From NCBI GenBank assembly GCA_963989385.1, contig OZ022505.1:56299737-56363736 (forward strand): 64,000 nt of DNA, given 5' to 3'. This DNA is from Ctena decussata. Lineage: Eukaryota > Mollusca > Bivalvia > Lucinida > Lucinidae. The position numbers and the translations under genes were made by a program. The notes under the pieces are model-generated. The model worked only from the letters and a program-made list of their open reading frames with translations. It was not told where the DNA came from and did no database searches. This document shows positions 4,225 to 62,200 of this stretch, in pieces; positions within the stretch are counted from its first letter, which is position 1, and every line of letters begins with the position of its first letter.

Positions 4225-5090
4225 TTTTGAGGTTACTATTAAAGGAAAGAAGTTTCTCACAGGGGGGTGGTGGGGTGGGGGTGGGGGAGCATATTTAAGA
4301 GTAACACCAAATTTTCTAGTGATACTTTTAGAACCTTCAAGTAAACTGTACAGTCAACCGATAGTCCATAAAGGATATAGAAAATTGGAAAACATCAGGG
4401 AAAAATAGGGGAAAAGGAAACATGGCTACCCTGCTGTTAATCTCAATAGAAACACAGGTCATGAAAACTAACTTGGTCAGTTTATTTAATGAGATGCCAT
4501 TATTGCATAAGTTTTCTTCTCACCTGTTCCTAGCAGAAGGGAGATATAGGTAATGCTTTTCCAGTGTCATCGTCGACATAAACTTTGCATCAGGTTTTCG
4601 GATTTACTGTAATGACCCTAAAATTTCCGACACCCGAAAGTCAGACAATTATACTTAGAAAGTCTTAGAGAGTAGATTTTACACATGTTAATGCATCCAA
4701 ATGATGCTTAGCCAATGGCAAAAGTGGGGCTACAACGTTTTGTCAGACCTGTCTGTCCAAATATTTAGGGTCATTAGGGTAGCTCCTTTTTGTGAAAATG
4801 CTCAGACATGGGAGATGCCGCATTTCTCAAAATTCTTGTTATATAGAAATGTGGTAAATTATCTTCATATAATTACTATATATTCCCCTTAGTCGAAGCC
4901 TAAATGGAACTTCATTGCACAGAGCCCTTCAGAATCAGCGCTTATCCTCCTGATATGACTGAAATACTGTTGAAAGGATGCAAAATTGCCAAGTCAGCTT
5001 TCCATTGAAATATTCTGGTTGCAGTTATTGCTTAAATTAAAGCTTATGAATTGGAATAAAACATATACATATTTACCGTATATATTTCAG

Positions 5091-5179
5091 GGTTGTCATA
5101 TGCAGTGTGAAGGAGGGTGTACAGGGCCTAAACCTGACCAATGTCACTCATGCAAGAACTTTAAAATGGAGGATTCTGG
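5091..5179 (+). CDS. Gene 1 exon: Cys-rich repeat start
   Basis: The acceptor is TATATATTTCAG and the donor is GGGTAAGT read as GG|GTAAGT. The translation begins GCHMQCEGGCTGPKPDQCHS, with five Cys in furin-repeat spacing. The exon ends in phase 2, and its final GG joins the leading A of the next exon to make Gly. The exon before it is not recognised, so the start of the coding sequence is outside what I can see. Confidence 0.8.
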
Positions 5180-8100
5180 GTAAGTTAGTTTTATGTCATT
5201 GGCTCGTGTATAGAAGGTAATTATCATCAAGGATCAAGTGCAGCTTTTTTAAGGACTGAGCAAATAATATAGTTCCTTACACCCTATTGCCATGCCCATG
5301 TCATATTCTTCGAAGATTGACTGCCTAATATGACACATCACTGTCCTCCAGAGGATGAAAATTAACATGCCTATTTACTCATCTGTATTCCCTTGCAAAA
5401 ATAGCAAGCAGAAAAACATAAATGAAAGCAAAACAAACCAGCAGATGTTTAGTTTTTGTAGCTATTGAAGAGTAGCCATGACGCGTCATGACATAGATTC
5501 AATACAGCTTTTTATCATATGACGTCGCATCTGAGAGTGTAATAAAGCCATGCATTAAAAACAATAATCCACTAGTGGATTAAATATGCAAATTACGCCG
5601 TAACGTTATACGCTGACGTCCATTAAAACGTCGCTTTTTCTAATGGCGAAATTGTGACGTTTTAGTGCTAAATTTCCTTATAAAATGCGATTTTAGTGTC
5701 ATATGATAAATAGAATCTTGCATTCGTGCTCATGTATTATTGAATTTATTAAACTCATTGGCGAAAATGATAAGATGCTCGGCAGAGCCTCGCATCTTAT
5801 CGTTTTCCCCAACTCGTTTAATAAATTCAATAATACATGAGCACTCATGTAAGATCCTCTATGAATGGACCAGTCTAGCAAAGCACATGACCTGGTGACG
5901 TAATGGAAAACACTGTAATATTGGCTTACCTAGCAGTCCTGTATGGGCTAGGCTAGTATTTTAATGCTACCTATCAGCAATTATGTCCCCACCCTGGAAC
6001 AGTAAAATGTTTGGTATGACAAGTGAAAAAGCTGAGGCCCTTTATGCTGAACTGCACAATGCAACTGGGCTTGTAATTTAGGTTATGTGTCAAGGGCAAG
6101 ACTTAGTGGATGAAAATAATTTGAGCTATGACACAACAAAATCAACAAAGTGGCATGTATGCCTAGCGAAGACTCAGATCAGCCTGGGCATAGGCCCAGT
6201 CTGATCAGAGTCTTTATTGTGTGCTTTAAGGGTAGCTAAGGGTCTAAGCTTGCTCTATGTCCAGGTTGATCTATTTTTTCACGGGGGGCACATGCCACTT
6301 TGTTGGTTTTGTTGTTTCTTGGCTCATTAATGCAGATAATGGAGACAATAGATTTTAGATTTTGCTTACAAGAAGGGAATTTTAGGTAAAAAAATACCTT
6401 TCATTGGAAAGGATAGCCCACCTGAACTTACTAAAAAAATCTGATGTAAGACTTTAACATTTGTTTACACCAGCACCAGGGTTTTAACTTGAAAGGAAAT
6501 GTGAAATGTGTGCAAAGAATTTGACTTTTGCCTCTCTGTAGGTGTCTGGGTACGCTTTCGGGAAAAGCAGATTCTGTCATTTTCAGTTTTGCTTCCCTTA
6601 TGAATTCTGAATAGAGGTCAACTCTGAAAGGAAAGAATTTGGAGGGGTACCCATGCACCTTAAACTTAATAATCTACAACATTTACTCTTTTTACAACAG
6701 AATGTGTGTAAGTTCTTGTCCCAATAATTACTACCTCAGGAATTCTGTGTGTAAACTGTGTGACCTAACCTGTGAGACGTGTACAGCAGGGCCCGGTTGT
6801 TTAAAGCATCGTTAACCTAACAAGCTCATTAAGAGGTCAACTCATTAAGTGTTTTACAACTTTATAACCAAATACACTGATATTTTTTGTTGAAAAAATG
6901 TGAGAAGCTTTTGCAGTGCAAAAGCTCCTTACATTTTTCAACAAAAAATATCAGTGCATTTGAGATATTAATGTTTGAAATTTTAATGAAATGGTGTCGT
7001 TAGTTTTGAACAGCCGGGCCCAGGGCTTCTGTGCAAGCAAGAGTAAAAAGAGTGCAAATATTTTGATTTTTGATCTCTCAATTTAATCATATGTAATGTT
7101 TTTTCCCTTTCTAAAACAGAATGTGTGTAAGCTCTTGCCCCAATAATTACTACCTCAGGGATTCTATGTGTAAACTGTGTGACCCAACATGTGAGACTTG
7201 TACAGCCATATCCTCTAATGAGGTCATCTGCCTGCTGTGTAAACCTGGTTTCCTCCTCATAGAGGGCAAGGGAAAATGTAAGAAGACTTGTGAACAGGGA
7301 TACTACAAAGGTACAATAAAATATTTGATTCTTACTTTGCTTTTGTAATGATGTGAAGTGTATTAGATATGGCAAATTTCGGTATTAATCCTAATAAATG
7401 CCCCGGGGTGTTGCATTTTACAGAGTGGGGACCTTTTTTAGAGCATAAAGCATAGCAAATCAGCCACTGCCAAAATACCTTTAATAAACAGTATTAAGGT
7501 GAATGGGTTTATTTTCAGAGGAAGCAACTCTATTATTTTTGCCTCTTTTCTCAGTAGGAGTCAACTCTAAAAGGAAACAATTTGCTCCTAGATTCTTTCC
7601 TTTAAGAGTGGGTCCCTTGTCAAAGACCTAAATGATCCAGAGAAGCAAACAGGAATTTATGCAAGTTAATAAAACATTATTTTCGTAAAAGAGGCAGAGA
7701 GTGTTTATTACAGCAAGGGCATTTATTAGCTCACCTGTGCCGAAGGCTCACAGGTGAGCTTATAGTATAGGCAGGCATCCGTCGTCCGTCGTCCGTCCGT
7801 CGTCCGTCCGTCGTCCGTCAATATTTTCAAACGACATCTCCTCTGAAACTACAAGGCCCATCATTACCAAATTTCATGTATAGCATCTATAGGCGGGGGG
7901 AACCAATAATACTGTTTTTTATCCAAATCCCTTCATAACTTTGGTTGCTATGGCAACTTAAAGTTTCCATTGACTTGTATGGGAAAAATTGAAAATTTGC
8001 ATTTATTGCTATGTCACTACAGATATTTTGACAGAACTTTTACAGAAATGTTCCTTGAGTATTCCTCTATCAACCACATGAACTTTATGTAAATTGCACA

Positions 8101-11100: not shown

Positions 11101-14100
11101 GGACCATTTTAAATCCCAATATTTTTGGGCATTATGGTAGATCACTGTAGTCAGATACATACTTATGCCCCATTAATTTGCTATTAATAAATACTGATAA
11201 GCTATTTTCGAATGAGAAAACTTTTGTGAAGTCCTGTTTCGGTATTTTGTAATGAAGATTGGGGTAAGACGTACATTCTTAACCCTAGTATGTAGTATGC
11301 AAATGGCATGGAGTAATGTAAATAAATCATCCTGCTAGATTGATCAATATGCTAAAAATACCAAAGGACAACCCATTAGATTTCGAATGAAATCAAGTTT
11401 CTTCTTAACACTTTTGATGAACCAAATATTTTTGGTATGACAGTAGAATTAGGAGAGTTCTATATGTGCAGTAACTCATGCATGCAAGTCAGGGCCAGAG
11501 ATTATAAAACTTGAGTACATTCTCAAAAATTAAAATAAAGCACACTGATTGGCTGCTTCCGAGCACATGCTCAGAAGCAGCCAATCAGTGAGCTTTATTT
11601 TGAGTTTGAGATTATACTCGTATAATCTCGGACCCAGTTCCATTTCCTCTTTTGCCTTCCTGCATCATAGCTAGGGCTACTGTTTTTAAGGATAAATATG
11701 ACAGATTATACAAGAATGGTTTTAACCCAGTCAAGTCTTTCCACTTGATTCCCCACCCAGCTTTGGAACAGTGGCTGTACAACAATATTGTATTTGGCTG
11801 ATATTAGCTTATCAGGCTAGAAGTGCATTTTGCAGAATGACCCTAAATATATAAATCAATAGTAATAAGTCTGCTTAAAGATTTTTTTTTTTGCCCTTCC
11901 AAAACATTGTCTGAAAATCTAGATCTGTCTTGAAAGACAGTTCTTGGTTTGTATATGCCTGTTTTGAAAAAAAACAGATGTATTATGTCATGGCACTGTC
12001 TGTCCATCTGTCTGTCCGTCAACATTCTTGTGCAAGCCGTAACTCAGTTACCCTTTGAGGTATCTTCATGATTTTTTGTAGGAATATGTATTATAATGGG
12101 GGAACATGTTGTATACAAGAATAATTGCTTCCCCCTTTCTTAATTTCCAAGTTATGTCCCTTTGATGATTTTTTTCATGACTAGTCTTGTGCGGGCCATT
12201 ACTAGGTAACTGTTTGGGATATCTTGCTGAAACTTTATAGCAATGTGAATGAAGTCCCAACAATGTGTGGCGTATAACAATGATTGCTCTTGAAGTCTTC
12301 CTTACTTCATTAATGAGTTACTTCCCTTTGATTAGTTTTATAGGCTATTTTTGTGTAGACTACTCTTGTGCATACCATACCTTGGTAAACATTTGGAATA
12401 TCTTGAAGCTTTATAGCAATGTGCATGATCACAAGATGGTGTGCCTCATATAAGAATGGTTGATCCCCCTTACTTAATTTTGGAGTTACTTTTCTTTGAT
12501 TATTTTTCTAGGCTAGGCCCATTCAGTCCATAACTTCTATATCCTTTGAAATATTTTAATGTAACTTTGTAGAAATAGGTATAATAATGGGACAGTGCAG
12601 CATGAGCAAGACCCACAACTCTGGTTCACTGCCTGAATTATCTGCCCTTGCATAAGTTTCTGTTTACTCCTGTAACTCCTTACCTTTTTAAAATATTTTA
12701 ACAAAACTTGATGATGTGTATATTATCAAGGGTATATATTAGGACCAGGAATGGTAACTCTAGTTTGCTTAGTTTGTGAATTATCTCACTTGTTTGGCTT
12801 TGCCATCTCTCAACTTCTGACCCGCTTCACCTTGGAAGCTGATTTTGGTTTACTCATAGTATTTGATATGTATTTTAATGTTGCAGTCATTAATTGCAGA
12901 GTTGTTGCCCCTGTTTGTTGGCCTGTACATCCTTGTTCATTCTGTAACTCCATCATGACATTAAAACTTGCAAAGCTCTTGTTTGGTTTGATTTGGGCGA
13001 GAAAAAAAAAAGACAAAAAACATTTTATAGACAAATAAATACAGTTAATTATCATTTTGCACCAGGGTGTTTGAGTGTAATGTGTTAATGTTCAGCTTTT
13101 CTGCTAAAATGCATGGGTGCAAAGGAAAATGGTAAGGGGATATTCTGTTTTAATTTGATGATAGGTATTGTGGTTTAAGGTAAATAGGTATAACTCCATT
13201 TTACAAAGGGAGACAAGTTTTGTGACTTCCTGTTCGCTTGCCCTTCCAAAATGTTGGTCTACTCTTTAAAAAAAGAATTTGCTGCTCTTTCCATTAAGAG
13301 TAGACCCACATTGAAGAAGGGAGACAAAAAGAAAAATGACAGTTGTTTCCCCTGAAAGTATACCCGTGCAGCTAAATTTTTTGTCTTGCCTGTGACTGAT
13401 GAGACTTCGGTATTACTTCTCCAGTAGTACCTTTCCTAGCCTGAAAAAGGGACAGGTTGCTGGCCAGAAAACGGGCACTTTTAGCACGTGACACACTTCC
13501 TTAAGGGCACTTTCCTGAAGCTACTATTTTCTAAGACAATTCAACTAAGGCTGCCGGGCCGGTTAGCGCAATCGGTAGGGCACCTGACTCGTAAGTTAGA
13601 GGTCCTGGGTTCGAATCCCGGTCTGGCCACATACTTTCGTTTCTCCTTCCGCTGATTCAAGAAGGGCAGTTGTCAGTTACTGGCGAAAGTATGTGCACTT
13701 TGTACTGGTTAACCGCTTAGGAGGTCTAAGCCTGCCCAGGAATAGTGTGGTTAGGTTAACTGACTGTCCCGACATGACCTTAGTTGTTTACCGTGGACGT
13801 TAAGCATAAAATCAACCAATCAACTAAGGCTATTGACTTTTGCTAACAAGATAAACACCTTGTATTTGCTGGGAGATATAAATATTTGCATAATAGAAAA
13901 CCTTTTTTACAAACAGAGAGCTGCATATTGCAAAAATATGACAATAAACTTGAATGAACTTGTGTCTCACAGAGGGAGGGCAGAAGAGTAAGACCAAAAG
14001 GCAGAAGGGTGCAGCACCCCTCTAAACCTCTGTAGGGGAAACACTATCCAGTATCAGTTGGGTAAACTTCCATTTAATTTTCTAGTTTCACTCTGTTATA

Positions 14101-41730: not shown

Positions 41731-44700
41731 CCGTAATCGCCCCATTTACCGCACATGCCCCTATAACCGCACACCAAGGCCATTTCCGGAAAAAAAAGCA
41801 CAAGCGCACACTGCTTTTTCCTTTTGAAACTCACAAAACGCATCAAGTTCAACTTACCATTACTGTTTCAACAGCGACAGTGTTTTCAGTTTTGTTTACC
41901 CGACCCAATGATGGAAGAGAGCAACTCTATCGGTCTAAATGTCAATCAGGCATCCTCGCCGATATTTACGAAGTTGGCTGAAGTGTTATGATGTGTACGA
42001 GTGCGAACAGCGGACTCGGATCAGCTTACACATCTGCGCCGTCTGATTAGTGTATTCTCTGTCTGCATCAACAATGGGAATGTACATGTCGATCCGAGAA
42101 GGATCAAGCTTACGAAGTTATGAGGTTGCGGGGATGTGCAGGCTGAACTGAGTCTTTGCCTTTCGTACATAGGCGCAATTCTTGTCATATATAGCGATAT
42201 TGTGCACGTGCGCCAAAGTGCGTTTGGGAAAGATACATGAACGACAGATGAGAAACCAGGGTTGCAAAAGAAATAAATTGTCATAACGACAAACTCTTGT
42301 TTCCTGACAAAGTCAGTCTGAATACATGCGCAAACTGAACGAAGCAACCAGCCTGCGCATATGCATGGTATGTGCATTTGAACAAAGTTCGCGGTAGCCA
42401 TAGGATAGGTGTATCATTGGCATAGCTGGCCCGTGGGCCTCAAAAGGGCCTCAGGACACATCCGATCAGCAAACACCTTCATCATACAGTGCATTTGCGA
42501 ACATTGACCAGTTCAACAAATCTCCAGGACTCGCCGATAGTTTGCAAAATAATTGTTTTAAGATGCGCAGACTGGTCTAAGGCTGCTGTTTACACATGTA
42601 ATGCGGTACCTTTCTCATGACACATTGCCAGTATTTCTGCACCCTTAGACGTAATAATAGGGAAGATAAACAAGAGGGCCATGAGGCCCTGAATCGCTCA
42701 CCTGAACAATTGGCAAGGTGGCTTTTTCTTATCATGTCTGAAATTGTCAAAATATGAGTCTGGGGTCATGTACTCATTTTTAGGCCAAAATATTCAAAAC
42801 TTTCCATGAAATCTTATTTTCTAGAATTTTCCCATATTTGATCATGCCGCAAAAAAGGTCAAGGTAAACCCAAAGTCACCATTTGAACAGTCTTGGTGAT
42901 ACTCTAGTACTCCATGCTACTTACTAAGTTTCAAGGCCATAGGTGTATCGGTTCTTGAGAAGGAAAATATTAAAATTTTATACCATAAGTGGTAATGGAG
43001 GCCATGTTGGTCATGTGACCTGGACCGTTTAAACAAATTTTTATTCAATCAACCCCTGGAGGCTCTATATAAAATGTATTTACAACTGGCCCTTTGGCTT
43101 TTGAGGAAATGGTTGAAAATGTCAAAATATGAGGGATCTTGATCAAAGGTCAAGAAATGACCTTGACCTCATAATTCTTCATGAACTCATTTAGACAACT
43201 GTATATATTAATTTTTAGGCCAAAATCTTCAAAACTTTCCATGAAATCTTATGTTCTAGTATTTTCCCATATTTGACCTTGCTGTAACAAAGGTCAAGGT
43301 CAACACAAGGTCATAATTTGAACAATCTTGATAGTACTCAAATACCCAATGCTACATACCAAGTCTCAAGGCCATTGGTCAATTGGTTCTGGAGAAGAAG
43401 ATTTTTAAAGGTTTTTACCATATATGGGCGTGGCGGCCATGTTGGTCATGTGTCCAGGACCATTAGAAAATTTATTCATTCCGTCAACCCCTGGAGGCTC
43501 TATATGAAATTTTGTTTCAATTGAAAAGGTGGATTTTTAAGGAGATTGTTTGAAATTGTCAAAATATGAGAGTTCTTGGTCAAAGGTCAAAGAATGACCT
43601 TGACCTCTTGTACTCACAAATCTTCATGTACTCATTAAGATGACTGTATATACCAATTCTTAGGCCAAAATCTTCCAAACTTACCATGAAATCTCATGTT
43701 CTAGCATTTTCTCATATTTGACCTTGCCGTAAAACAGGTCAAGGTCAAACCAGGGTCATGATTTGAATAATCTTGATAGTACTTGAGTATGCAATGCTAC
43801 ATACCAAGTCTAAAGCTCATCAGTCAACTGGTTCTGGAGAAGAAGATTTTTAAAAGTTTATACCATATATGGGCGTGGTGGCCACGCTGGTCATGTGACC
43901 TGGACCGTATGAATAAATTTTCGTTCCCTCAACCTCTGAAGGCTCTATATGAAATTTGGTTTCAATTGGCCCAGTGGCTTTTGAGGAGTTTGTTAGAACT
44001 TGTCAAAATATCAGAGTTCAGGTCAAAGGTCAAAGAATGACCTTGACCTCTTGTACTCATAAATCTTCATGTAGTGATTAAGATGACTGTAGATACCAAT
44101 TTTCAGCCCAAAATCTTCAACAGTTTCCAAGATATCTTATGTTGTAGCATTTTGCCATATAAAAGCATAAGGAAGCAAATTTGACCTTACCGTAAAAAAG
44201 GTCAAGGTCAACACAAAGTCATAATTTGAACAATCTTGGTAGTACTCGAGCACTCGATGCTACATACCAAGTTTCAAGGCCATCCGCCTATTGGTTCTGG
44301 AGAAGAAGATTTTTTCAGGTTTTTACCATATATGGGCATGGCGGCCATGTTTGTCATGTGACCAGGACCGTTTGAACAACTTTTCGTTCCTAAGGTCCCA
44401 GGAGGCTCTATATGAAATTTGGTTACAATTGGCTCAGCAGTTTCAGAGGAGAAGTCGTTTGAAATTGTTGACGGACGGACGACGGACGGACGACGGACGA
44501 CGGAGCCTTACCATCCTATAAGCTCCCCCGGAGCCGCTGGCTCAGGTGAGCTAAAAAGACCGCATCTTCCAGAATTAGAATGTGTGTTATTAATAGAAGC
44601 CCGTGAATTTAAAGCAGACCGCTTGCTGTGAATGAATAGCCAGAGCACTGACAAACTCACCTGACGTGTTTAAACAATCGCATATTAGGTCATCGTAAAT

Positions 44701-47231: not shown

Positions 47232-50200
47232 GTAAGTACTTGCAAATATTTCTGAGCTCCTTCCTAAACACTTTTAGCGCCAAAAAGCAGACAACAAAAT
47301 GTACATCTGCAGAATTTCAAAACTGTTTTTGCTACATCCTAAACACTTTAAGCGCCAAAAAGCAGACAACGAAATTTACATCGCAAAATTTCAAAAATGT
47401 TTCGTCCAAGCTGTAAGAAATTGAGAATTTAAAGACTAAAGAGCAAACAGAGTAGAGCTAGATGAGGTGGCTTATTATAAGCCTTCTCATCAGGATCTTT
47501 ATTGTTTGCAATTCAGCTACTTGCTTCTCTGGTACTTATTAAAGTGTTTACCCTTTTTACACTGGAGACCTGTTTTGGGGACATATTCAAACAGTGCAGA
47601 CCCTGTTCAGATGCTGCAAAAGGCAGCATCTGATCAGGGTCAGCACTGTTTGCTTACTGAAATTTCTGTGCAAAAAAACAATAAAAGTGAAAAAAAGATG
47701 GACAAGTCCACTAGTCAAAAAAGAGTCAACTGGTTTAGACAAGGGAAGTAAGTAGCTTCCAAAGAGATTCATTTTAATGCATCCCATTCAGCATGCATTT
47801 CTTTTGCTAAAATTGTATTTCATGTTATGAAAAACAGCCCTACAATACTGTAAACATACAGTCAATTCTGGATATCTCAAAGTCAAAGCTCATCTCAAAA
47901 CTACTGATATTTCAAAATATTTACATTCGTGGTGTAGTTACTGAAAAGCCCTATAGTAAACCATTTGAACGTAATGTAGTTTACATTCCAATAATTACAT
48001 TAAGACACGCGACGTCAATGACGTAAAAATAAACAATGGCTCTCTACCAGCTGATTGGACGTCAGCAACGTCATGACGTCATGCATGCCGTTCTGCTGTT
48101 AGCAGAAAAACCTGCGTGTACATGTTTTATTGCTTCAGTTTTAGGGCTTACCGGTATATAAGATTTTTCAAGAAAGAGTTGATTGAAACGAATGTAAATA
48201 TAAGCAATGAACTTAATTTTTCTGATGTTTATCGAAGTGTAAACTACATTGGGTCACTAGCAAAGTTTACATGAACCCCTTCGGGGTTCATTCACTTTGC
48301 ACGTGACCCAATGTAGTTTACACTTCGATAAACCTCAGAAAAATGAAATTCATTCCTTAAGTAAATTTTCTGGTCCCAGAAAATTGACTTAAATACCAGG
48401 TAGAGTTTGAGAACCCTCGTAAACTAGAAATTACTCATCCATATAATAGGGATAGACAAGTCCAATGGTAAAAAAGGTTAACTGATTTAGACAAGGGAGA
48501 TAAGTAGTTTTAAAGGGAAGTAGTTTAATATGTCCTATTCAGCATGCAATTATTGTGCTTTAATTATTTTTCCTGTTATGAGGAGGACAGCTCTACTGTG
48601 AAACTAATATCAGTGCTCCAGATAAGAATGGGAAACTTGCCAGAGATGCAAATTCTTTCCTTTGAGAGCTGACCCCTTTTGAGAAGGGAGACACAAAAAG
48701 CATTTTCTTCATCGGAATATATATCTATTCACCTTTAGACTGTTTGTTACAAGTATTTTGGCAGTGGCGGATTTACTACTCTTAACATAGGGCTCTAAAT
48801 TATGCCCTCTTTTTGTAAAATGCAACACCCCGTAGCATTTAATAGGATAAATAATGTATTTGAATAATAAATGAAGCACATAATGGACTTGATATAACCA
48901 TGCTACATGTATTTTGGCTTGTCGGAGAAAGCAAAATTAATTTTTTCAAAGTTTTTCTTGATATTTTGAAGAGTTTTTAATGAATTATTTCAGGTAGACA
49001 ATGCAAACCTAGATTTTGTTGGTATCAGCCAGGTGGCATCTTTTGCTCCTGGTGGTCCAGACACGACCTCTGTGACCTTCACTGTTGCCGATGACGATGA
49101 ACCTGAGATGGAGGAGACATACTACTTCAAGATGATTGTGATTGGTTCTGATGCTACTGTGACGGTTCCCAACATTGCCACTGTGAGGATATTGGCCAAT
49201 GATGACGCTTTTGGGTTTTTCCGCTTCATTGATGTAAGAAGATTATTGTCTCTCCTGCGACTAGCAGAAGCAAGACATAGGTATTACTTTTCCAGCGGCA
49301 GGTGCATTGGAGATGTAAATTTTGTGTCAAGTTTTCTCACTCTGCTTTTTAACAATGCGCAGCCAGGCCCGGAGGTTATGAAACTTGAGTACATTCTCAA
49401 ACTTAAAATAAAGCACACTGATTGGCTGCTTCCGAGCATATGCTTAGAAGCAGCCAATCAGTGTGCTTTATTTTGAGTTTGAGATTATTCTCAAGTTTTA
49501 TAACCTCAAACCCAGGTGAGTCATAGCATTCTGCAGCTTGTTTGGTGATACTGATCCATTTAATGTTTTCCATGCCATTTTAACCCTTAAACTACCAGAA
49601 AGCGGACAATGAAATTTAGGCCTGCAAAACCTTGAAAAAAAAAGGTTTGGTCAAAGCCAAATCATACTGAGAATTTAAAGAATAAAGGGCCATTTTAACC
49701 CTTAGATTGCCAAAAAGCAGACAACAAAGTTTACGTCTGCAAAATTCGAAAAAAAAAGAAAAAAAAAAAAATATTTCATCTAAGCTATATCATATTAAGA
49801 ATTTAGAAAAAGGAGGTCAAACAGTGTAGATCCAGATGAGGAGCTGCCTCATCTTGATCTACTACTCTGTTTAGAATTTCGCAATTTTCATATCTGGGGC
49901 TTTAAGTGTTAAACCACTTAGTCTTTAATTGGTAGATTTTCCTTATGCATGTTCTCATAAACATGTATGCCTTTGAATTTTGAATAATCCAGTCATCATT
50001 AATTTTGAGGACATGCTTTTAAAGAGAGAGTACAAAAATAAAAACAGTGGAGATCTTTTAACTCTGATCCTGCTAAACAACCTGATTTGGGTGTCCACTG
50101 ATTTTGAAAACATTTCCCACTTTTTGTGGAGTTCTTGGCCCAGTTGTTCAAAACATATCATTACTTTATGAAAGGTTTACATTTTCAGTTCCATTTTATC

Positions 50201-53200
50201 CAGAAATACTGCCATTATTTTGCAAAAAAAAAAAAAAAAAAAAAAAAAATGGAGCTTCTTTGGAGCTGCAAAAGCACCTCACAATTTTTCAGCAAAAATA
50301 TTAGCAAAGTTGAATTATCCATACTAAAAGACTATACGAATCCTTGTCTAATAACTCTGTTAACCCTTAATGTGCTAAAAAGCAGACGACTAAATTTACG
50401 TCTGCAGAATTTCAAAAAATGTTTCGCCCAAGCAATATCATATTGAGAATTCGAACACTAGAGGGCTAACAGTGAAGATTCAGATGAGGTGGATCTACAC
50501 TCTTTGCCAATTCAACAATTTTAATTTTTGGCACTTTAAGGGTTAAGATAACACTTCTGTGATGTTTTATTTTTCAGCCTTCCCCTCTGAGAGTGAAAGA
50601 AGACACGTTATCCACCATTGTGGCAAACATCAGGGTTGGCAGGGAGCTTGGCACATTTGGGCTTGTCAATGTCACGTACAAGGTAACATTTATACTTTTT
50701 TTTTTTTTGCTGGTTTACATGGAAAAAATGAATAAAACTTGAAAACCAGAACTGTACATAATAATAAAGAGAATGAAACATAAAAAAAAAAAAATGAATA
50801 AATAAAAAGAAAAAAAAAAGTAAAAAAAAAAGGTTGTTAACTTACATATTTTCAGAACATCATTATTGCCTTCTCGGAGGCATTTATCAATTAAATTAAT
50901 AACAGATTCTTTTTTTTTTTCAATTATTGTGTTTTGTTTCGATTGTCACAAAGTACAAATGACAATATTCATTCCTTATGCTCCGGGCCGCGTAGCGTAA
51001 TCGGTAGGGCACCTGAATCATAAGTCAGAGGTCCTGGGTTCAATACCTGGTCTGGCCACATACTTTTATTTCTCCTTCAGCTGATTCAAGAAGGGCAGTT
51101 GTCAGGTACTGGCGAAAGTATGTGCACTTAGTACTGGTTAGCTGCTTAGGAGGTCTAAGTCTGCCCAGGAATAGTGTGGTTAGGTTAACTGACAGTCCCG
51201 ACATGACCATAGCTGTTTACCGTGAATGTTAAGCAACAAATCAAATCAAAATCAAATCATTCCTTTATTATTGCATTATAATTCCAACCCAATAGTCTAA
51301 TGTGCAATTGGGTTGGTCTAGAGTTAGTGGAAAACGGCTGCTATACATCAATAAAATCCCCTGAACCGGAATCTTAGAACTATTTTCTTTGTGACAATTT
51401 CTAAGGTACTCATTATAACTGACAATTTACAGGTAAAGATGACTGAGTTGGAATTATAAGAAATGAAATTTGTTTTTGATTTGATCTATGTATCAACACA
51501 TTGATTCACTCACAAACTTAACATAAAGCCCTTAGGGCTTTATTCAGTTTGTGAGTGATTTGCCAGCATTTACACATTGATAAAATCTACAAAAGTAAAA
51601 TTCATTCCTATAGTAAAACTAAACAGTTCCCTTTCATCTCAACCATATGAAAGTAGAGGAAAAGCTGATGTTGTCAGTCTGGCATCAGCATCCCCATCCT
51701 AACTGGATGTTCTGGGACCATATTTATAAAAGGACTTAAGTGATTGCTATGCTATTGCTGAGGCTCAATTTCTATAAAGGAGATTCCCTACAACTATGAA
51801 ATTTGCTCTGGAGGAACAGTCTGAAAAAGACTTCCTCCAGAGCAAATTTCATAGCTGTAGGGAATCTCCTTCATAGAAATTGAGCCTTAGCAACAGCATA
51901 GCAACAACTTAAGTCATTTTATAAATACGACCCCTGATTTTGAGTTGTTTATGTTATTGGTAAAGCACTTCCAGGCTAGCTATCTTGTATTCAAACAGGT
52001 CTTGTTAAGACAATTACAGTAATGATTTTTGGTGTCACAAACTTTAGAATTTTTATGTTTTTTTTTTTTGTTTTGCTTTTTTTCAGGTAGAGGGTACTGA
52101 TGAAACAGCAATAGCTGGTGTTGATATCACACCTGTGACTGGGAGGATTGTCTTTCTACCCCAGGAGACAGAAAATATCATTCAGTTACAGATTAGAACT
52201 GATCCCGTGAGTAAATCAGGGGTTGGGAGGGGTTGGTGGGGAGACGAATGTATGCTGTTGCAATTAAGAATGGCTAGAGTGTGGATTGAGGGTATTAAAA
52301 TGAAGAGGATGAGCTGGGAAACAAGGGAAGGGAGTATATTGTATTTCTACTCCAGGAGAAAAGAATTCTCCTTCATTTACAGATTAGAACTAATCCAGTG
52401 AATAAATTGGGGGTTTAAAAGGTTAGGAGGGATGGGTTGACAGATGCAAGCAGTTGCAATGAAGAAGTGAAGGAGTGGGGTAGGAGTGAGCTAGGGAACA
52501 GGGAAAGGGAGAGCATTATATTTCTGCCCCAGGGGACAGAAAATGTTACACATGTACAAATTAGAATTAGGATGAACTATGCAGTTTGCTTTTATCATTT
52601 GTCAGGTAGAAAGATCAGCTTGAATGTCTAAGGTGTAAGGGTACACCTCCCTGCTCTTATATTGTTACGCAGAAGGTTTTACTCTCGGTCGACACGGGTG
52701 TAGAGCCTTATGCGTCGCCAGGACGGCGGAGGGTGACTTCCGGTTAAAGGGTTATCTACTAGTGTAATACACTAACAAGGAAACTCTAACAACGTTAGAA
52801 TTTTTTAAGTTTATATATCATGTAAATTCTATATACAACAATACAATTTACAACTGTCACAATTACAATAATATACAACACATATCAGTTCATGTCGCTG
52901 GCCCAAGTAAGGTGTTTGTTTCAAATCTGTAATCGATTTGCGTACAATACGCAAATAGATTACCGTCTGACGTCAACACCGTACTCGGCTCAGCGCCATG
53001 AACTAAAGGAAAACACAAAGAACAAAAAAAACAACGTTAGTTTGAGCTCATAGAAAAAAACAAGGCCTTATGTTGGTAGACTTCAATTCGTCGTTCCCTG
53101 GATCATGTCATGGGCCAGTCCATATATCATGAGGAACACCAACTCTTATTAACACGTGCACGATTATATACTGGTCGCTCCCTGGATCGTACCAGGGACC

Positions 53201-56200
53201 AGTCTATATATATTAAAACACCTTAGTGGACGAACACTGTCCCACACTTGATGTGACCTTCAGATCTTATCACAGAATCTGGCAAAACTGTGCTAACCAC
53301 TTCCGCCTACATTTTGTGCTTCCCGCCTCTGCTTAGGAACCATGCACAAACGGCGTTGTAACTGCCTCTACCCGGGTTGGTATTAACCTGGAGACGTTTA
53401 TCGAATCTCCAGGTGAGACGTGGCTCTAAGCCCTAACAGCTGACTGCCGGACTTGATGTGCCCTTCTAGGTCTTAACACAGAATCTGGGCACACAACAAT
53501 ATAACATCCATCAAGAATTAAACAGCCACGTCTAACTTTTCATTAAAAGATAGGCGTATAAATACTATGCGTCTCACATTAAAATCATGCAACACGCTTT
53601 CCACAATCAAAAGACTCGTGCAGGTATTCACCTTAAAATCATGCAATACGCTGTCCACGAGAGGTATTCACAAACAACCCATGCATAACGTAGCCACAAT
53701 TTCCGTAAATGTTTTATTACCACAGTTACCCTAAAAACTGTAGCCTTACTGATTGAAAGGATTAAAATAATCTCGACGACATAGTGGACGATTAGATCCA
53801 TTTCGTAACATAGGTTTCCCCTTAGGGAGAAAAAAACATAACAATGTTTCTTTTCTGAAATAGTACGAAATGCGATCGAATCGTAGGCTATGTCAAAACT
53901 GGAAAACTAGCTATATACACAACAACGGTGCGATGCATAACGTGGCCAAACTATCTACTAAGGTAGTCTACCCCCAAATTATCTTGGCCACGGATTTACC
54001 TAATCCCAAAGTCAATCAATTCTCTGTGTCGTACCTGTCGTGCCTCAAATGGAATGGGGAAGTATGGGTAAGTCTGATCGAACACTAGATGGAAATCGCC
54101 ACCTTTAAGTGTATCAGACGTAAAATTAACGTTGTCTTTGACATTACACCTACTTCGCACGACAGATCCCACAGGATCCGTTGCCTCTGCCTCTAATCTA
54201 CTATCGCCACCGTGTTCTTCCATATTCGATTTCTGAGTCGACGTTACGTCGTCGGGCTTTACGTTTTCACGTATGAAGTCATATTGGGATACGTCCTCTG
54301 ACGTACAAATGTTAACTCTTTGGACATTCGGATCACTGTGATCCTCTGATCCAACATTGTCACGTGCATTAACAACTGCAGACGACACGTTCTTTTGACG
54401 TTGAACGTACTGCTTAATCATGTTAGCAGGATAAGTATTCACGACGCCCTTGACGTTAATCTTGTAGTTCATTGCATTGACTACTTGGACAACTTCATAT
54501 GGCCCGTTCCATTGAAGTAACAATTTATTGCACTCATTCGGGAGTAGCAAAAGTACTTTGTCTCCGACGTCAAACTTACGCGACCTCGCGCGTTTATCAT
54601 AATAAGCATTCTGCTTTACGTCCATTTTCCGGACAATATCCTGTGCTAACTTACACGTTCTCTCTAAACGTTCTTTTAGATCAATAACGTACTGATACGT
54701 CAATAACGCACATTGGTCAGTTTCCTCTACAGACCACAATTCCTTTAATATTTGCATAGGACCCCTAACATTACGCCCATACAACAGTTCAAACGGGGAA
54801 AAACCTAACGACTCTTGCGGAACTTCTCTTACTGCGAATAATAATGCTGGGAGATACCTGTCCCAGTCATTCGGACGTTCTACGCACATTTCACGTAATA
54901 TCTGTTTCAATGTATCATGGAATTTCTCCACGGGTCCTTTACCAGTAGATTGATAAGGAATAGTTGTCAGATCTTGAAGCGACAACAACCTACTAACCTC
55001 TCTCATGACGTCAATCGTGATCTTACTATCATGCTCGATTAGCATTTCACTCGGTATTCCTAATCTACTGAACATCTCAACTAACGCTTCGGCTACGCGT
55101 CCCGTTTCAATGCCGGGTAACGCTACCGCCTCGGGATATCTCGTCGCATAGTCTATCATTGTTAAAATATAGCGGGATTTCCAGTCAGAACGAGGTTCTA
55201 TCGGTCCTACTATATCAACCGCGACTCGTTTAAATGGTGTGTCAATCTGTGGCAACTTTCCTAACGGTACCTTAGTGACACGACCTTTTTGAATAGTCCT
55301 TTGACATATGTCACAAGATTTACAAAACCTTGCCACATCACCACAAATTCCAGGCCAAAAGAACTCAGTTAACACTCTATCCATAGTTTTCTTTATGCCC
55401 AAATGACCTGACATCAAGGTTTCGTGCGCCAATCTTAACACCTTTTCACGAAAACCTTCAGGGATAATAAGTTGCAAAGTGACCTTGTTTCCCTTAGTAA
55501 ACTGCCTATACAATAAATCTTTCTTTCGGATAAACTTAGTTTCACCTCGGTTCAATCCACGACTAATAGTCACATTCCCAGATTCCACTCTTTGCCTTAT
55601 GCCATTCAATTTAGGGTCAACAACTTGGGCCTGCTTCAATGCCTCCTTATCACTAGCAATAATTTGATCAGGAACTTTAAGTTTCTTATAGACCTCTTCA
55701 CCTTGCTTAGCTTGTGACCTAGTCACTGCCGCCATTGCAAAATGGGACATATCGGGAAGTTTTGACCCGTCAATATTTCCCATAACCAGGTCATACAATG
55801 TATCTTCCATGCACAATGCCTCAGTTTTTCCTGTGAAAAATGGACAATCTATGTCAACCATTGCTAAGGGATACCTTTGGGTAGATTCATCAATCAAAGT
55901 TACATCAGATTCTCTACCAAGTAACTGATCATTAGAAACCAAGTTTCTACGAACGACACACCCAGTACAACCTGTGTCCCTTAAAACTACAACAGTCTTA
56001 CCATTAACCGTACCCTGCGCTGTTGGTAATCGCGACCTTAAAAAGTAACAGACACCTTCCCTATCCACGTTATCATTGATTAATGGACTTTCTTCCTTAC
56101 TCTTATAGAGACCTTCAATTTCATGAGACCTATTCATTGTAGTTTTACAAAAGCTCATTTGATGTCCGCCACCCCGACCACGTCCGCGGGAATAACCCCG

Positions 56201-59200
56201 ACCACGGCCACGATCTGAATTACTACCCTTCGTCTGTACAGTATCGCTCTTACTCTGTGATCTTTGTGTCTCATCTTTCGGTACATAACTACTCCCCTTA
56301 CTTCCGCTATACCCGCTTGCACTTGCACCTACCTCCGCACTATATGCTTGCTTCCTATCGGGATTCTTAAAACATTTATATGTTAAATGTCCCTTACCAC
56401 AAATACTACATTTTATCTCTGGCTTCGCACTCGGCTTATTATCAGATCTACTCTGAGTTACGCCCTTACTATCACGCTGCCCCTTATTAACACAAGCGTA
56501 GACACCGCCACGTGCTTCTGCAAATAAATCTGCTTCCCTAGCCATCTCACCTAGATTCGTGAATGTTTTCGGTTTCAAATGAACATATAGTTCTTTACTA
56601 CAGGATTCTAAAAACTGATCCCTAGCGAAAAAATCGCAAACAGATTCATAAGACTGGTCTACCTTCGCCATTTTCAACCATTTATTAAGATACGACCTAA
56701 GTCTACTACTAAACTGAATAAACGTTTCGGACTTTTCAGGCCTATCATAGCGAAATTTCTTCCTAAATCCGCGTTCAGTCATATCAAAATTCTTTAACAA
56801 CGCATCTTTCAACTTGTCATAATCTGCTGCATCATCTACAGACAATCTATCATAAACATCAAGCGCGCGACCTTTAAGTAATGCGCTTAAATATGCAGCC
56901 CAAACGTTTTTATCCCATTTGTTCGCCGTCGCGTATTTCTCAAACCTTGATAAGTAACTATCCATTTTGTCCTTACTTTCATCAAAATACGGTAACTTGG
57001 GATCTCGCGCATGCGCTAACTTTTCAGCCTTCTGTTTTTCTAATTCAACTCTAAACGTTACCTTCTGCAAATCTATCTGATTCTTCAACTCGCGTTGCTG
57101 CAATTCAAAACTATACTTCAACTTTTCTAACTCAACTTCGCTCGACAACTTCGCTTCCTTATCGCTTTCGACTTGAGACAACTTAGCTTCCCTATCTTTC
57201 TCGGCTTGCCGCTCTATGCTTTCAATTCGCGCCATCTCGATTTCCCTATCCGCCGCAATCTTAGCCAATTCAATTTCCCGATCTTTTTCGGCCTGCGCGA
57301 TCCTAGCTAACTCAATTTCCCTGTCTTTATCGGCCTGCGCGAGCTTTTCTTTCTCCGCCGCGATCTTCTCTTTATCAAGTTCCCTTACCGCGTGCCTTTC
57401 TGCCCTCTCAGTCTCTTGCTGCTGCTTTACAAATTCCTGTAAAGCCTGTCCCTCATAACCTAACTCCTTTCCCGTCTTAACTAACTGATCCATGACGCTT
57501 AACGTAATGCTCACGTTAACTTAACTGAAACCGACGTTCACTTATAGTCACACACGTTAACTAAAACATTAACAATAATAATAAAAAACTAATCCAACTA
57601 AAACGTTGATAAATTAGTATACTCGCGATCTAGACGTAGCTATTAAAGTTACGTTCATAACAGACCGGAAATGACGTCATAAACTGACGTTGACTTTGCC
57701 GAGAATTACTTTTCACTTTCAAATGACACAATTAGATGACGTAAATAACCCACATTACAATTACGCCCAACTTGATCTAGCGTATCGGATATACAAACGT
57801 AACGTATGTAACGCAACGTATTAACACTGACACGACAACTGTACGTCCTACATTACAAAACCTTATAAGATACCAACGGTAAATCAAACTTAAGATTCCG
57901 CTATTAGGTATAATTGTAACGATATTATATTACGTTACGAGTAACCTACGTTACTAAATCAGGACATAAAATGGACCTCAGTAACGGTTACGACAGAACG
58001 TACAAACGTTTGAATTAATGAACTAACAGATTGTCATGCAACAGCAGTGCCCAGGTACTCAAATGGACCTTAAAACTAAATATGTATCATCCGTGCCAAG
58101 ACAATTCAGGTCTATATAACCTCAGTTTCCCCACTCAGATATGCAACCTGTTACATTTTATCACAAATTAATGCATGGGCTATCGCACTTCATCATGCAG
58201 GGAATAAGGATAGTTGACCTTAATTGAGTGTAGGTTACATTTACAAAGAATTTAGTGGCAAAATTGTTCCCCTAAAATTCACAGCCATACGTCACCTTAG
58301 AAAAGAACAATCAGAAAGTCAATAATAAAAAAAATGTCTGACAAAATTGTGCCTAGATTCTGTATATATTGTCAATGTGTTACACTGGCAGATATTAACC
58401 GGAAATCAAATCCCACTTCTGACACCATGTTACGCAGAAGGTTTTACTCTCGGTCGACACGGGTGTAGAGCCTTATGCGTCGCCAGGACGGCGGAGGGTG
58501 ACTTCCGGTTAAAGGGTTATCTACTAGTGTAATACACTAACAAGGAAACTCTAACAACGTTAGAATTTTTTAAGTTTATATATCATGTAAATTCTATATA
58601 CAACAATACAATTTACAACTGTCACAATTACAATAATATACAACACATATCAGTTCATGTCGCTGGCCCAAGTAAGGTGTTTGTTTCAAATCTGTAATCG
58701 ATTTGCGTACAATACGCAAATAGATTACCGTCTGACGTCAACACCGTACTCGGCTCAGCGCCATGAACTAAAGGAAAACACAAAGAACAAAAAAAACAAC
58801 GTTAGTTTGAGCTCATAGAAAAAAACAAGGCCTTATGTTGGTAGACTTCAATTCGTCGTTCCCTGGATCATGTCATGGGCCAGTCCATATATCATGAGGA
58901 ACACCAACTCTTATTAACACGTGCACGATTATATACTGGTCGCTCCCTGGATCGTACCAGGGACCAGTCTATATATATTAAAACACCTTAGTGGACGAAC
59001 ACTGTCCCACACTTGATGTGACCTTCAGATCTTATCACAGAATCTGGCAAAACTGTGCTAACCACTTCCGCCTACATTTTGTGCTTCCCGCCTCTGCTTA
59101 GGAACCATGCACAAACGGCGTTGTAACTGCCTCTACCTGGGTTGGTATTAACCTGGAGACGTTTATCGAATCTCCAGGTGAGACGTGGCTCTAAGCCCTA

Positions 59201-62200
59201 ACAGCTGACTGCCGGACTTGATGTGCCCTTCTAGGTCTTAACACAGAATCTGGGCACACAACAATATAACATCCATCAAGAATTAAACAGCCACGTCTAA
59301 CTTTTCATTAAAAGATAGGCGTATAAATACTATGCGTCTCACATTAAAATCATGCAACACGCTTTCCACAATCAAAAGACTCGTGCAGGTATTCACCTTA
59401 AAATCATGCAATACGCTGTCCACGAGAGGTATTCACAAACAACCCATGCATAACGTAGCCACAATTTCCGTAAATGTTTTATTACCACAGTTACCCTAAA
59501 AACTGTAGCCTTACTGATTGAAAGGATTAAAATAATCTCGACGACATAGTGGACGATTAGATCCATTTCGTAACATATATATTTTACAAAGGGGAGGAGG
59601 TGAGGGTGGGGGGTGTATGGTGGAGAGAGCAACTTTTGTGACTTCTTTCTTGCATGGAAGAACATCAAAGCCCTTCCAAATATAGATCAATTTTTAAGTG
59701 AAAAAATTGCTTCTGGGGGTTCAGATTCTTTCCTTTTAGAATTGAGCCCCATTCAGAATGCAAAAAAAAATAAAATGGCATAGTTATTTCCCCTGAAATT
59801 GAACCCTTCAGCTGACACAAATCGAGTAAGGCATCACAAAATTTAGGTCAGCCATTGTATTGATGGAGTTGAATGTATTAATATTCACAGACACCGGAGA
59901 ACGATGAAGAATTCACCTTGACTTTGACAAGTGCTACAAAAGGGGCCAGGGTTGCTGAGGAAACCTTTACCATTATCATTGAGGCAAATGATGCTCCTAT
60001 CAGGTTTCATCAGGTATTTGGCTTACTGTATTAATTCTATTAAATGCCCTGGAGATGTTGCATTTTATGAAAGGAGGGCATTATTTAGAGCATAAAGTGT
60101 AGTTAATCAGCCACTGCCAAAGTACAGCTACATGTAATAAACAGTATTGCAACTCTACTATTTTTTGCCTTCCTTCTCAATAGGGGTCAACTCTTAAAGG
60201 AAAGAATTTGCTCCTCTAGGAGCAAATTCTTTCCTGTAAGAGTAGAACCCATGTTCAAGAGCTACCTCATCCAGAGAATCAAGCAGGAGTTTATACAAGT
60301 TAGTGTAATATTATTTTCAGAAAAGTGACAGGGGGTATTTATTAGAGCAGGGTCGTTTACTAGGATTAATACATTATGTTCCTCCTACACTGGTGGTTGA
60401 GCTTTGTCATAAAGTCAGCACTTTTTACTCCGATCTGTTGCTTTTCTTGGGAAAAATTTGGGAAGTTATCTTTGTGTTATTTTGGCAGCTATTCTTTCAA
60501 GCATTTTCTACCTGTTTTATCCAAAACTGAATAATACATGTACCCATAAGTCGGTTTGTCACACAGTAGACATTTTAATAAGCTATCATATAATTTTCAG
60601 GAGAATGGGTAGTTGAGCATCTTTGTTTTACTACTCACTATATGGATGTTGTACCTATCTCCTTCATGCTAAAAGCTAGCAAGTTTGTATAAGCAGCTAC
60701 AATTATGCTTCCAAATAATTAGTTTAAAACTTTGCATATTATGTGACGTTGAAGACATACATTTGTGCATGAAGTTTTTCTGATGATTTACAGTTTTTGT
60801 CTAGCCCATGCTTAGCAAAAGCAAGACATGGGAATTGCATTTGCATCGTCATCATTGGGCTTGTAAAGTTTCGTTGAGTTTTCTGGTTAAACTCTGTTTT
60901 GTGACAATGTGCAGACAGGCCAACACAGCATTCCCAACCTTGTTCAATCCTTTGAAGTTTTAAGTGGTTGTTTATCAATGTCTGCTGCAAGTATGTGCTA
61001 TCACATCCTTCTAGCAATTGATTTGAAATAAATTTTGCATGTTACATACGTAATAAAAAGGTTGATGATAAGTTTAAAGATCAAAACTTCATTTTAGACA
61101 AAATTATGGATTTTCAAATTTAGACCAGCTTGAACATGCATGTGAAATCAAACCTGCTAATATGGTCACCTTTATTAAGAGATTATTTCTTTTAAACAGC
61201 CACCATTTTCTGATCCCTTAGACCAAAGTACAGTGCAAATGAACCTGTATTAAGGGGTCACCTGTCTTAAGTAGTCATGAGACTCCTGACGTTACGTTCC
61301 ACTCCGCTACACTAGTGAAGTAGCGGTAGTATAACAGTAGCAGATTCTAAGGCCCTGTGTTGTAGGTCTACTGTCCTAAGCAGCAAGTTTTTGTCCTTCC
61401 CTTGGTTGTTCCCTTAAGACAGGTTTGACTGTAGTTTGGTCATCATTTTTGCTTTCTTGTAATTATACCCCCGGCATACGAAGTATGTCGAGGGGTACTG
61501 TAAAACACCTATATTTGGCGGTCACTTTATTTTGGCGATATTGGCGGAAAAGAAGAAAACCGCCAAATTAAAATGCCGCCAATATAAGCTCATGATACCG
61601 AAAGAAGAAAAAATATTATCGAGCACATGATCCTATTTCCTCTTCCAAAATATCAATGCTTATACACATCACATATATATGCGCAAAAGAAGATGCTTCC
61701 CAAACAACAAGAGGGAGGAAACGGAGTATGAAATTGTTCTCACCATACTAATTAGTATTTCAATTAAGTTGATTAAATCAGAAGGAACACAAAATCAGTT
61801 TACTTTAAACAATTAACTACCCAAACTGTAACATGACTATAATAATAATTGCTTTTATTTTAACCAACATGACAATATAGAGCTCAAATAAAGAGCAAAA
61901 TACGACGTCAGAAGAAATATTTTGTTCTTGAGAATCACAAAACCGCCAAAATAAAAATCCGCCAAAAGGTCCATATTTAAAAACCGCCAAATTTTGCTGC
62001 CACCAAATATAAGTGTTTTACAGTATATAGTTTTCGTCTTTCCGTCCGTTCGTCCGTCTTTCCGTCCATCCGTCCGTCTGTCCGTCCGTATGTACGTTAT
62101 TTAACATTTGCGTTAAAGTTTTGCGTTAAGTTTTTTATTTTGCCTCTGTTAACCGTAACTTGTTCAGAGATGCTTATTATTTTAGTAGAGGATGGAACCA

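Follow-up and report, generated by a model that had tools for sequence, protein, structure and literature searches.

Long terminal repeat (LTR) retrotransposons without reverse transcriptase (RT) are usually viewed as parasites that have shed pol, and the LARD and TRIM elements lack coding capacity as well as RT. Among Ty3/gypsy elements, a Gmr1-like group was reportedly described by Goodwin and Poulter in 2002. In the available text of later reports, Gmr1-like elements carry integrase (INT) upstream of RT (PMC8220671, PMC6238403), and wheat non-autonomous elements are described, likewise in the portions available, as moved by an autonomous partner with which they share LTR ends and primer binding site (PBS) (PMC11302176, PMC9744471). 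Here we describe an LTR element at 52663-59575, on the minus strand, of a 64,000-nt stretch of the bivalve Ctena decussata genome (contig OZ022505.1 of assembly GCA_963989385.1, positions 56,299,737 to 56,363,736; hereafter the window), which has kept Gag, protease (PR) and integrase, apparently under selection, and has no RT. Our data suggest, with a probability of roughly 0.72, that it is a semi-autonomous, long-lived RT-less allele of a recombining Gmr1-like Ty3/gypsy population, copied in trans and keeping a probably non-catalytic integrase (INT*).

An RT-less element and its RT-bearing partner

The element contains one open Gag-PR-INT frame of 1172 codons (53996..57514, GTG start, on the minus strand like every feature of the element given below), whose first ATG, codon 8 (57493), is in line with the starts of relatives. 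A sequence-only reading of the locus had described an intact frame of this length with D513 in protease and H697 in the integrase finger, and we verified both residues and the open frame; its further claim that PR and INT were retained while RT was lost is borne out for integrase by a clear Pfam match and for protease by motif plus a weak Pfam match. The integrase H2C2 zinc finger (residues 684-740, 55295..55465; PF17921, E 1.3e-19) was strong, and the matches to rve, protease, Gag and SCAN all fell below cut-offs. Gag is marked by a nucleocapsid CCHC knuckle motif (56372..56410), and protease by a segment containing D513 in RDTGC (55907..56017; weak Pfam match over residues 500-536, below cut-off), with the DTG motif present in nearly all aligned relatives. 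A C-terminal GPY or SH3-like module of integrase (approximately residues 985-1034, 54413..54562) gave weak SH3 and p58_C matches, also below cut-off, with model strands at pLDDT 79-91. The Ty3/gypsy complement of Gag, aspartic protease and H2C2 integrase with a GPY module is present in this form, the H2C2 finger by Pfam and the rest by motifs and relatives, and the closest sequence matches in the PDB were Ty3 Gag-Pol (the best) and the integrase of prototype foamy virus (PFV). Gag also has a 42-bp tandem repeat in its charged N-terminal region (57254-57342), near which some copies carry insertions of 33-84 nt.

RT and RNase H, which complete a Ty3/gypsy element, gave no Pfam match in the window frame. 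When seven RT-bearing relatives were compared with the window by tblastn, the one common match beyond the shared Gag-INT part was a 19-residue stretch from the C-terminus of RNase H (54010-53954; 7/7 queries, E 0.004-0.47; 79% identity to the protein P0001), in frame through and beyond the stop of the open frame. The DNA there is near-identical to that of RT-bearing copies in alignment, and only the 14 codons 3′ of the stop (IRGQDNLGVDYLSR, 53954..53995) can, on this comparison, be called a safe RNase H remnant. Since Pfam showed neither enzyme and an in-frame remnant with near-identical DNA is present, we conclude that the element descends from one that had both and now lacks RT and almost the whole of RNase H. 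The sequence-only reading was right that no RT is found, and overlooked the RNase H remnant beyond the stop.

Upstream of that stop, a C-terminal tail (residues 1035-1172, 53999..54412) was found in RT-less elements only, and 11 of the 15 RT-less tails displayed end in FGIR. By eye the tail resembled the start of RT or the end of RNase H, a candidate origin that we rejected: in profile searches against RT, RNase H and linker the tails scored no higher than their shuffled versions, so that homology to any of these is unsupported, and pairwise scores for the window's tail were mixed, between 0 and 273 of 1000 shuffles scoring as well, the best case being one that included the INT-adjacent part.

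The ends of the element are those of a Ty3/gypsy (Metaviridae) retrotransposon, with paired LTRs, PBS, polypurine tract (PPT) and short target site duplication (TSD) all present. The 5′ LTR (58428..59575) and the 3′ LTR (52663..53810, of the short-LTR type) are each 1148 bp long and differ at a single site (53373 C / 59138 T), and the 5-bp sequence TATAT stands at both ends, at 52658..52662 on the left and 59576..59580 on the right. The PPT, AAGGGGAAACCTA (53811..53823), adjoins the 3′ LTR at 53810, and AAGGGGAAACCT stood directly 5′ of the 3′ LTR in 18/18 copies read. Adjoining the 5′ LTR at 58428 is the PBS, TGGTGTCAGAAGTGGGAT (58410..58427), which we take to be complementary to the 3′ end of tRNA-Leu; the leader between 5′ LTR and open frame (57515..58427) is common to RT-bearing copies. 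The element proposed from sequence alone, with LTRs about one base apart and with intact PBS, PPT and TATAT duplication, was located as proposed, and the recent movement read from it fits the single-difference LTR pair and the identical 5-bp TSD.

RT-less copies are numerous in this genome. In counts covering 1.66 Gb in 245 contigs, for which reversed 33-mers served as controls and gave 0 matches, an RT-less-specific integrase 33-mer had 381 exact copies (195+186) and an RT-less tail 33-mer had 85, or 454 with up to 3 mismatches; the corresponding RT-bearing integrase 33-mer had 666 exact copies, a count that takes in any broken or recombinant copy bearing it. On contig 1 to 108.6 Mb, at least 15 of 19 listed INT* sites have the tail 932-951 nt downstream, a distance that leaves no space for RT. 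The counts, which point to hundreds of RT-less copies, together with a second lineage bearing the same tail, contradict the idea that RT was deleted only in the window copy. The window LTR itself had 41 genomic matches scored at 98-100% (the window pair counted, and one match partial).

Among the best 120 of 432 matches in a protein search, from scoring limited to the 7987 candidates sharing most words, the top match (P0001) is RT-bearing and 88% identical across 86% of the query, and it is followed by a long series of RT-less proteins at approximately 70-74% identity over near-full length. Of these 120, half (60) are RT-less by an RT-motif test and 1080-1230 aa long, one of them (P0105) just 45% identical. 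The named relatives are mainly bivalves, and two polyproteins of this animal retrotransposon (P0060, P0066) are filed under Candidatus Thiodiazotropha metagenome-assembled genomes, probably as host DNA in symbiont bins.

The RT-bearing partner of the window element was found in the same genome. Reading 13 further LTR pairs gave two RT-less elements (L010, open, and L011, broken) and 11 that contain RT and RNase H (L012-L022), with LTRs spaced 6.86-6.96 kb apart; ten of the 11 have the integrase motif TDCGSQF, and six have a single open frame of 1534-1570 codons reaching the end of RNase H. The remaining one, L017 (G000:C6:76871600-76879850), is a chimera in which a 1556-codon RT-bearing frame contains an RT-less EHDS/KGPVEKF integrase, with the crossover within the divergent region described below. 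Partner elements (P0001, L015 and others) have the order Gag-PR-INT-RT-RH (RH, RNase H), placing integrase upstream of RT as in Gmr1. In the 14 elements read in this way, the LTRs of a pair are 1-7 substitutions apart over ~1145 bp, and 12/14 have matching 5-bp TSDs. RT-bearing copies are likewise young and numerous, and two PBS haplotypes each occur in both classes. A search for an RT-bearing element with matching PBS, PPT and Gag, which the sequence-only reading had proposed, accordingly found one, with LTRs, leader and Gag 92-100% identical per 200-bp step.

An old cassette in a probable recombining population

The RT-less form departs from this partner in one place. Compared with RT-bearing copies in 200-bp steps, the window element has 94-100% identity across almost the whole of the LTRs, the leader, Gag, PR and the initial half of INT (two steps stand at 92-93%). 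Identity then drops to 70-84% (97% at first for L017), falls further to 52-64% amid numerous gaps, and recovers to 96-100% in the 3′ untranslated region and LTR. The divergent stretch is an RT-less cassette of 1.08 kb (53990..55070; element nt 4506-5586), which replaces ~2.2 kb of INT-C/RT/RH; no other part of the stretches compared separates the two forms by fixed differences. When 32 RT-less copies were set against 10 RT-bearing ones (excluding L017 and a duplicate of the window element), the 1468 sites of codons 310-799 contained 13 shared polymorphisms and no fixed difference, and the 702 sites of codons 800-1033 contained 158 fixed differences and a single shared polymorphism. Fixed differences begin at element nt 4506 and end at 5586; beyond that point, as far as the comparison reached (nt 5944), there were none, nor any shared polymorphism. 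Between the window and L015, dS was 0.04 in Gag and in PR-INTn, and codons 806-1034 gave a dS of ~1.4 and a dN of 0.17. So sharp an edge (0 versus 158 fixed differences) offers a clean natural gauge of recombination between elements.

Trees built from 28 of 121 rows disagree strongly between regions. For residues 150-800 the window groups with the RT-bearing P0001 (support 100) and monophyly of RT-less rows is rejected (approximately unbiased test, p 6e-5), and for residues 801-1034 all RT-less rows used, including the window, form one clade (support 100) and the grouping with P0001 is rejected (p 4e-5). Identity between window and P0001 is 96-100% per 50-residue block across residues 101-800. 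A second RT-less lineage, represented by P0002, resembles P0062 in the same way, at 94-100% per block in residues 1-400 and 551-800, with 58-84% in residues 401-550 and 74-82% from residue 801 on; P0062 ends before RT and is classed as RT-bearing by its integrase type only. Judging from upstream identity, P0001 and P0062 probably come from the same two hosts as the window element and P0002. These upstream matches, taken with the common cassette, suggest that the RT-less form in each lineage carries the upstream half of its local partner and the same foreign cassette. By this comparison the cassette is old and predates the split of the two lineages, in both of which RT-less and RT-bearing forms appear to persist side by side.

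These results also bear on how the element arose. Descent from an INT-before-RT (Gmr1-like) element, as the sequence-only reading suggested, is supported by the partner's PR-INT-RT-RH order and by the scrap of RNase H beyond the stop; its proposal that such an element lost its 3′ half stands as regards RT loss. Going beyond it, we read the RT-less form as an old cassette allele in a recombining population and not as the product of a recent 3′ loss.

Some copies combine the two forms. Three second-lineage proteins (P0044, P0052, P0073) have TDCGSQFT together with the RT-less tail and are probable recombinants within the cassette, and at G000:C1:49730983-49731963 the RT-less tail 33-mer has the RT-bearing integrase 33-mer (TDCGSQFT) 948 nt upstream, which is the RT-less spacing. 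A search for second-lineage DNA yielded nothing usable in the prokaryote genomes and viral contigs scanned, where one distant match (L001) was 29% identical.

LTR and array variants were seen as well. Among the RT-less loci read (L024-L052, L053-L056), 27/30 diverge from the window LTR after ~230-350 bp, and a long-LTR RT-less variant, with ~1 kb extra at about LTR position 350, was directly seen in 4 loci. Tandem arrays contain five RT-less integrase sites 6821 nt apart and three RT-bearing sites 7851 nt apart (G000:C3:13985212-14012528, C3:11797099-11812833), and this spacing suggests that long-LTR RT-bearing copies exist too.

Altered integrase, selection and rival explanations

The cassette begins within the integrase core and changes its active site. 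The window retains the first catalytic Asp (D767, 55214..55216) and the catalytic Glu (E863, 54926..54928; KGPVEKF versus NGLVERF in the RT-bearing form), and has Glu at the second catalytic Asp position (E827, 55034..55036; IEHDS versus TDCGS), giving D-E-E where the triad is D, D, E, a change that the sequence-only reading missed. Among the 120 best protein matches, this Glu is found in 57 of the 60 RT-less proteins of 1080-1230 aa, and the Asp in 25/25 RT-bearing rows (Glu in 0/25). The 95 rows without a recognised RT motif comprise 65 with Glu, 15 with Asp and 15 unreadable, the Asp rows including sequences that are RT-bearing by Pfam, cut pieces and recombinants. The RT-less form is also altered at G829, Q831, F832 and L861, four positions that never vary among 23 RT-bearing rows, and has gained a second acidic residue at 829 (Asp829 or Glu829) in both lineages. 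Across residues 806-900, in pairs that probably come from the same two hosts, an RT-bearing pair is 98% identical and an RT-less pair 75% (p 2.5e-6), and the same pairs are alike elsewhere (73 and 75% in Gag, 93 and 92% in residues 681-805). Catalytic constraint on the INT* core is, on these alignments, gone or changed, and INT* is probably catalytically inactive. AlphaFold2 modelling did not distinguish INT* (53 sequences) from P0091, a control of RT-bearing type (54 sequences): in each model much of the catalytic core was of low confidence, with no strand predicted at the second Asp. Foldseek recovered an integrase fold from the INT* model, with PFV and Ty3 integrases ranking first.

Despite the D-E-E triad, the cassette still shows a pattern indicative of purifying selection. 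Between the RT-less and RT-bearing forms, dN/dS is 0.12 over codons 806-1034, and assigning all nonsynonymous change to the RT-less branch, with half of dS, would raise the ratio to ~0.25. Within 30 copies, polymorphisms shared between copies numbered 5 nonsynonymous and 10 synonymous against a neutral expectation of 2.9:1 (binomial p 0.001), singletons numbered 35 and 30, respectively, and a single copy had the only stop in the cassette. The cassette is also open across two lineages at 76% identity; when codons 806-1172 were evolved neutrally to the observed divergence of these lineages, 5/1000 simulations stayed open.

Several points weigh against a long-selected, non-catalytic INT*. The dN/dS estimate spans the RT-bearing branch and the time before the Asp was lost, with dS near saturation, and the polymorphism test is small, at 15 shared changes. 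Simulated alone, the halves of the cassette are less telling (open in 80/1000 for codons 806-1034 and 60/1000 for 1035-1172). Of 30 loci chosen as best matches to the window's cassette (40 were scored of 1002 first-look candidates), 26, the window counted, have no interruption between roughly codon 311 and the stop, a figure biased upwards since such a sample favours good copies. The difference between the RT-less and RT-bearing pairs indicates that the core is clearly under weaker constraint, and an Asp-to-Glu change can leave some activity. Loss of the Asp is moreover not required for the RT-less state, since the three probable second-lineage recombinants and the C1:49730983 copy keep it with the tail.

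We propose that the RT-less element would supply its own Gag, protease and INT*, while RT, RNase H and probably integrase catalysis would be provided in trans by the RT-bearing partner, which matches it in LTRs, PBS, PPT, leader and Gag. With no RT of its own the RT-less form must use another's, and a partner so similar is the obvious source; this genome does contain one that agrees in LTR ends, PBS and Gag, as expected of a semi-autonomous element moved in trans. The borrowing of RT in trans, also suggested in the sequence-only reading, fits the near-identical LTRs, leader and Gag of this partner, and the LTR pairs and copy numbers are what suggest co-packaging and use of the partner's RT. 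Both RNAs may be co-packaged and exchange sequence by template switching, which would account for the homogenised flanks. Outside the 1.08-kb cassette, which contains the second half of INT*, the GPY module and the new tail, RT-less and RT-bearing forms would then constitute one recombining population.

INT* itself, still apparently under selection, would most likely have a non-catalytic task, either anchoring the element RNA in the particle or filling the non-catalytic (outer) positions of a mixed integrase complex. Outer integrase subunits of the PFV intasome are non-catalytic. As a precedent for the former task, the available text of one report states that HIV-1 integrase anchors viral RNA to capsid (PMC13102720). 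A broader version, in which a two-allele pol locus is kept across host species, both alleles freely exchanging the rest of the element, and the integrase of the RT-less allele has exchanged catalysis for a selected non-catalytic role, we offer only tentatively. If true, it would amount to labour divided between two genomes and a step towards a multipartite element. An integrase with a changed active site that still shows purifying selection makes the question of how much of integrase's job lies beyond integration testable from natural sequences.

Of the alternatives, the one that fares best, though we consider it unlikely, is that INT* is still a working integrase in which Glu827 or the acidic residue at 829 replaces the Asp, only RT and RNase H being borrowed. 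The retention of D767, E863 and the zinc finger is consistent with this, as are the acidic replacement with its second acid at 829 in both lineages, the Foldseek ranking and the few RT-less forms with the normal Asp. The invariance of the Asp in RT-bearing rows argues otherwise, and the changes at G829, Q831, F832 and L861 point to a region that has lost much constraint. In retroviral integrases, Asp-to-Glu at the second catalytic position normally abolishes strand transfer, which also counts against it.

The element could instead be an ordinary deletion derivative, in which RT was lost, the frame stays intact through youth and recombination of Gag-PR, and INT* has no function of its own. The low divergence of LTR pairs, the much faster evolution of residues 806-900 in the RT-less pair and a Gag-PR plainly held in common with the partner all fit. 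Because the unshared cassette has a dN/dS of 0.12 and an excess of synonymous shared polymorphism, stays open across two lineages where neutral simulations seldom do, and ends in FGIR in most displayed tails, we regard such a derivative as improbable.

Poorer odds again attach to interference, whereby INT*, fused to Gag, would act as a parasite poisoning partner particles or intasomes, or as a copy-number brake. Truncated Gag is such a brake for yeast Ty1. A catalytically altered integrase that shares its particle with the partner's, alongside a near-identical Gag, has the look expected of a dominant negative, and the copy numbers (381 and 666) are of the same order; the RT-bearing copies are young and numerous too, and strong interference would be self-harming in a form that depends on partner enzymes. 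An assembly error, or a deletion private to the window copy, we discount almost entirely: the structure recurs in the second lineage and at numerous loci in this genome, each with its own TSD wherever one was read.

Neighbouring features and relation to described systems

Elsewhere in the window, and close to the end of the element, an inverted repeat at 51711-51937, whose 106-nt arms are 90% complementary, resembles a small fold-back element. A tRNA-like sequence at 13557-13630 (Rfam tRNA, 38 bits) has no clear anticodon and is perhaps a pseudogene or the head of a SINE (short interspersed element), and a tandem array of a 445-bp unit (~3.8 copies) occupies 42776-44468. The first part of an open frame at 49033-49476 resembles a Calx-beta repeat by eye, and we presume that it may be a host-gene exon.

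In PMC literature, taken as titles and abstract openings, with most subscription journals outside its coverage, we found no description of an RT-less LTR element keeping protease and integrase. Within that scope we likewise found no report in which an element of this kind, altered in its integrase active site, forms one of the alleles of a population that recombines. Parts of this pattern are already known from the accessible text of earlier work, namely non-autonomous elements with selected open frames (Athila, PMC2410132) and semi-autonomous elements that encode Gag or Gag-protease (PMC11302176, PMC9744471).

Likeness to Gmr1-like elements lies in the partner's Gag-PR-INT-RT-RH order, along with a SCAN-like Gag match that is weak and below cut-off; the assignment is made from domain order, and the window element differs by lacking RT and RNase H and by its altered integrase. 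Non-autonomous Athila of Arabidopsis, as presented in the available portion of PMC2410132, are similar in having RT-less families, young insertions, recombination between lineages and selected intact open frames. According to the same text, the families without pol encode Gag or Gag plus Env only, with RT and integrase absent, whereas the window element keeps protease and an integrase with an altered site, and pol is not wholly absent from it.

Defective and complete pararetroviruses are described, in the text available, as homogenised by region-specific recombination (PMC5491270), and members of the Onsen family as mixed by recombination during bursts (PMC5668417), both resembling the exchange proposed here. 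Those systems are plant viruses or one plant LTR family, and the portions available name no RT-less integrase cassette (PMC5491270, PMC5668417).

Wheat RLG_Quinta/RLG_Cereba and RLG_Sabrina_SA offer a closer functional parallel, in that Gag or Gag-protease is supplied by a non-autonomous element termed semi-autonomous in the accessible text (PMC11302176, PMC9744471). As described there, the wheat elements keep no integrase, and hardly any sequence is common to Wilma and its partners; in the window element, by contrast, approximately five sixths is near-identical to the partner. With LARD and TRIM the window element shares the absence of RT, and it differs from them by a 3.5-kb frame of 1172 codons with a signal of selection.

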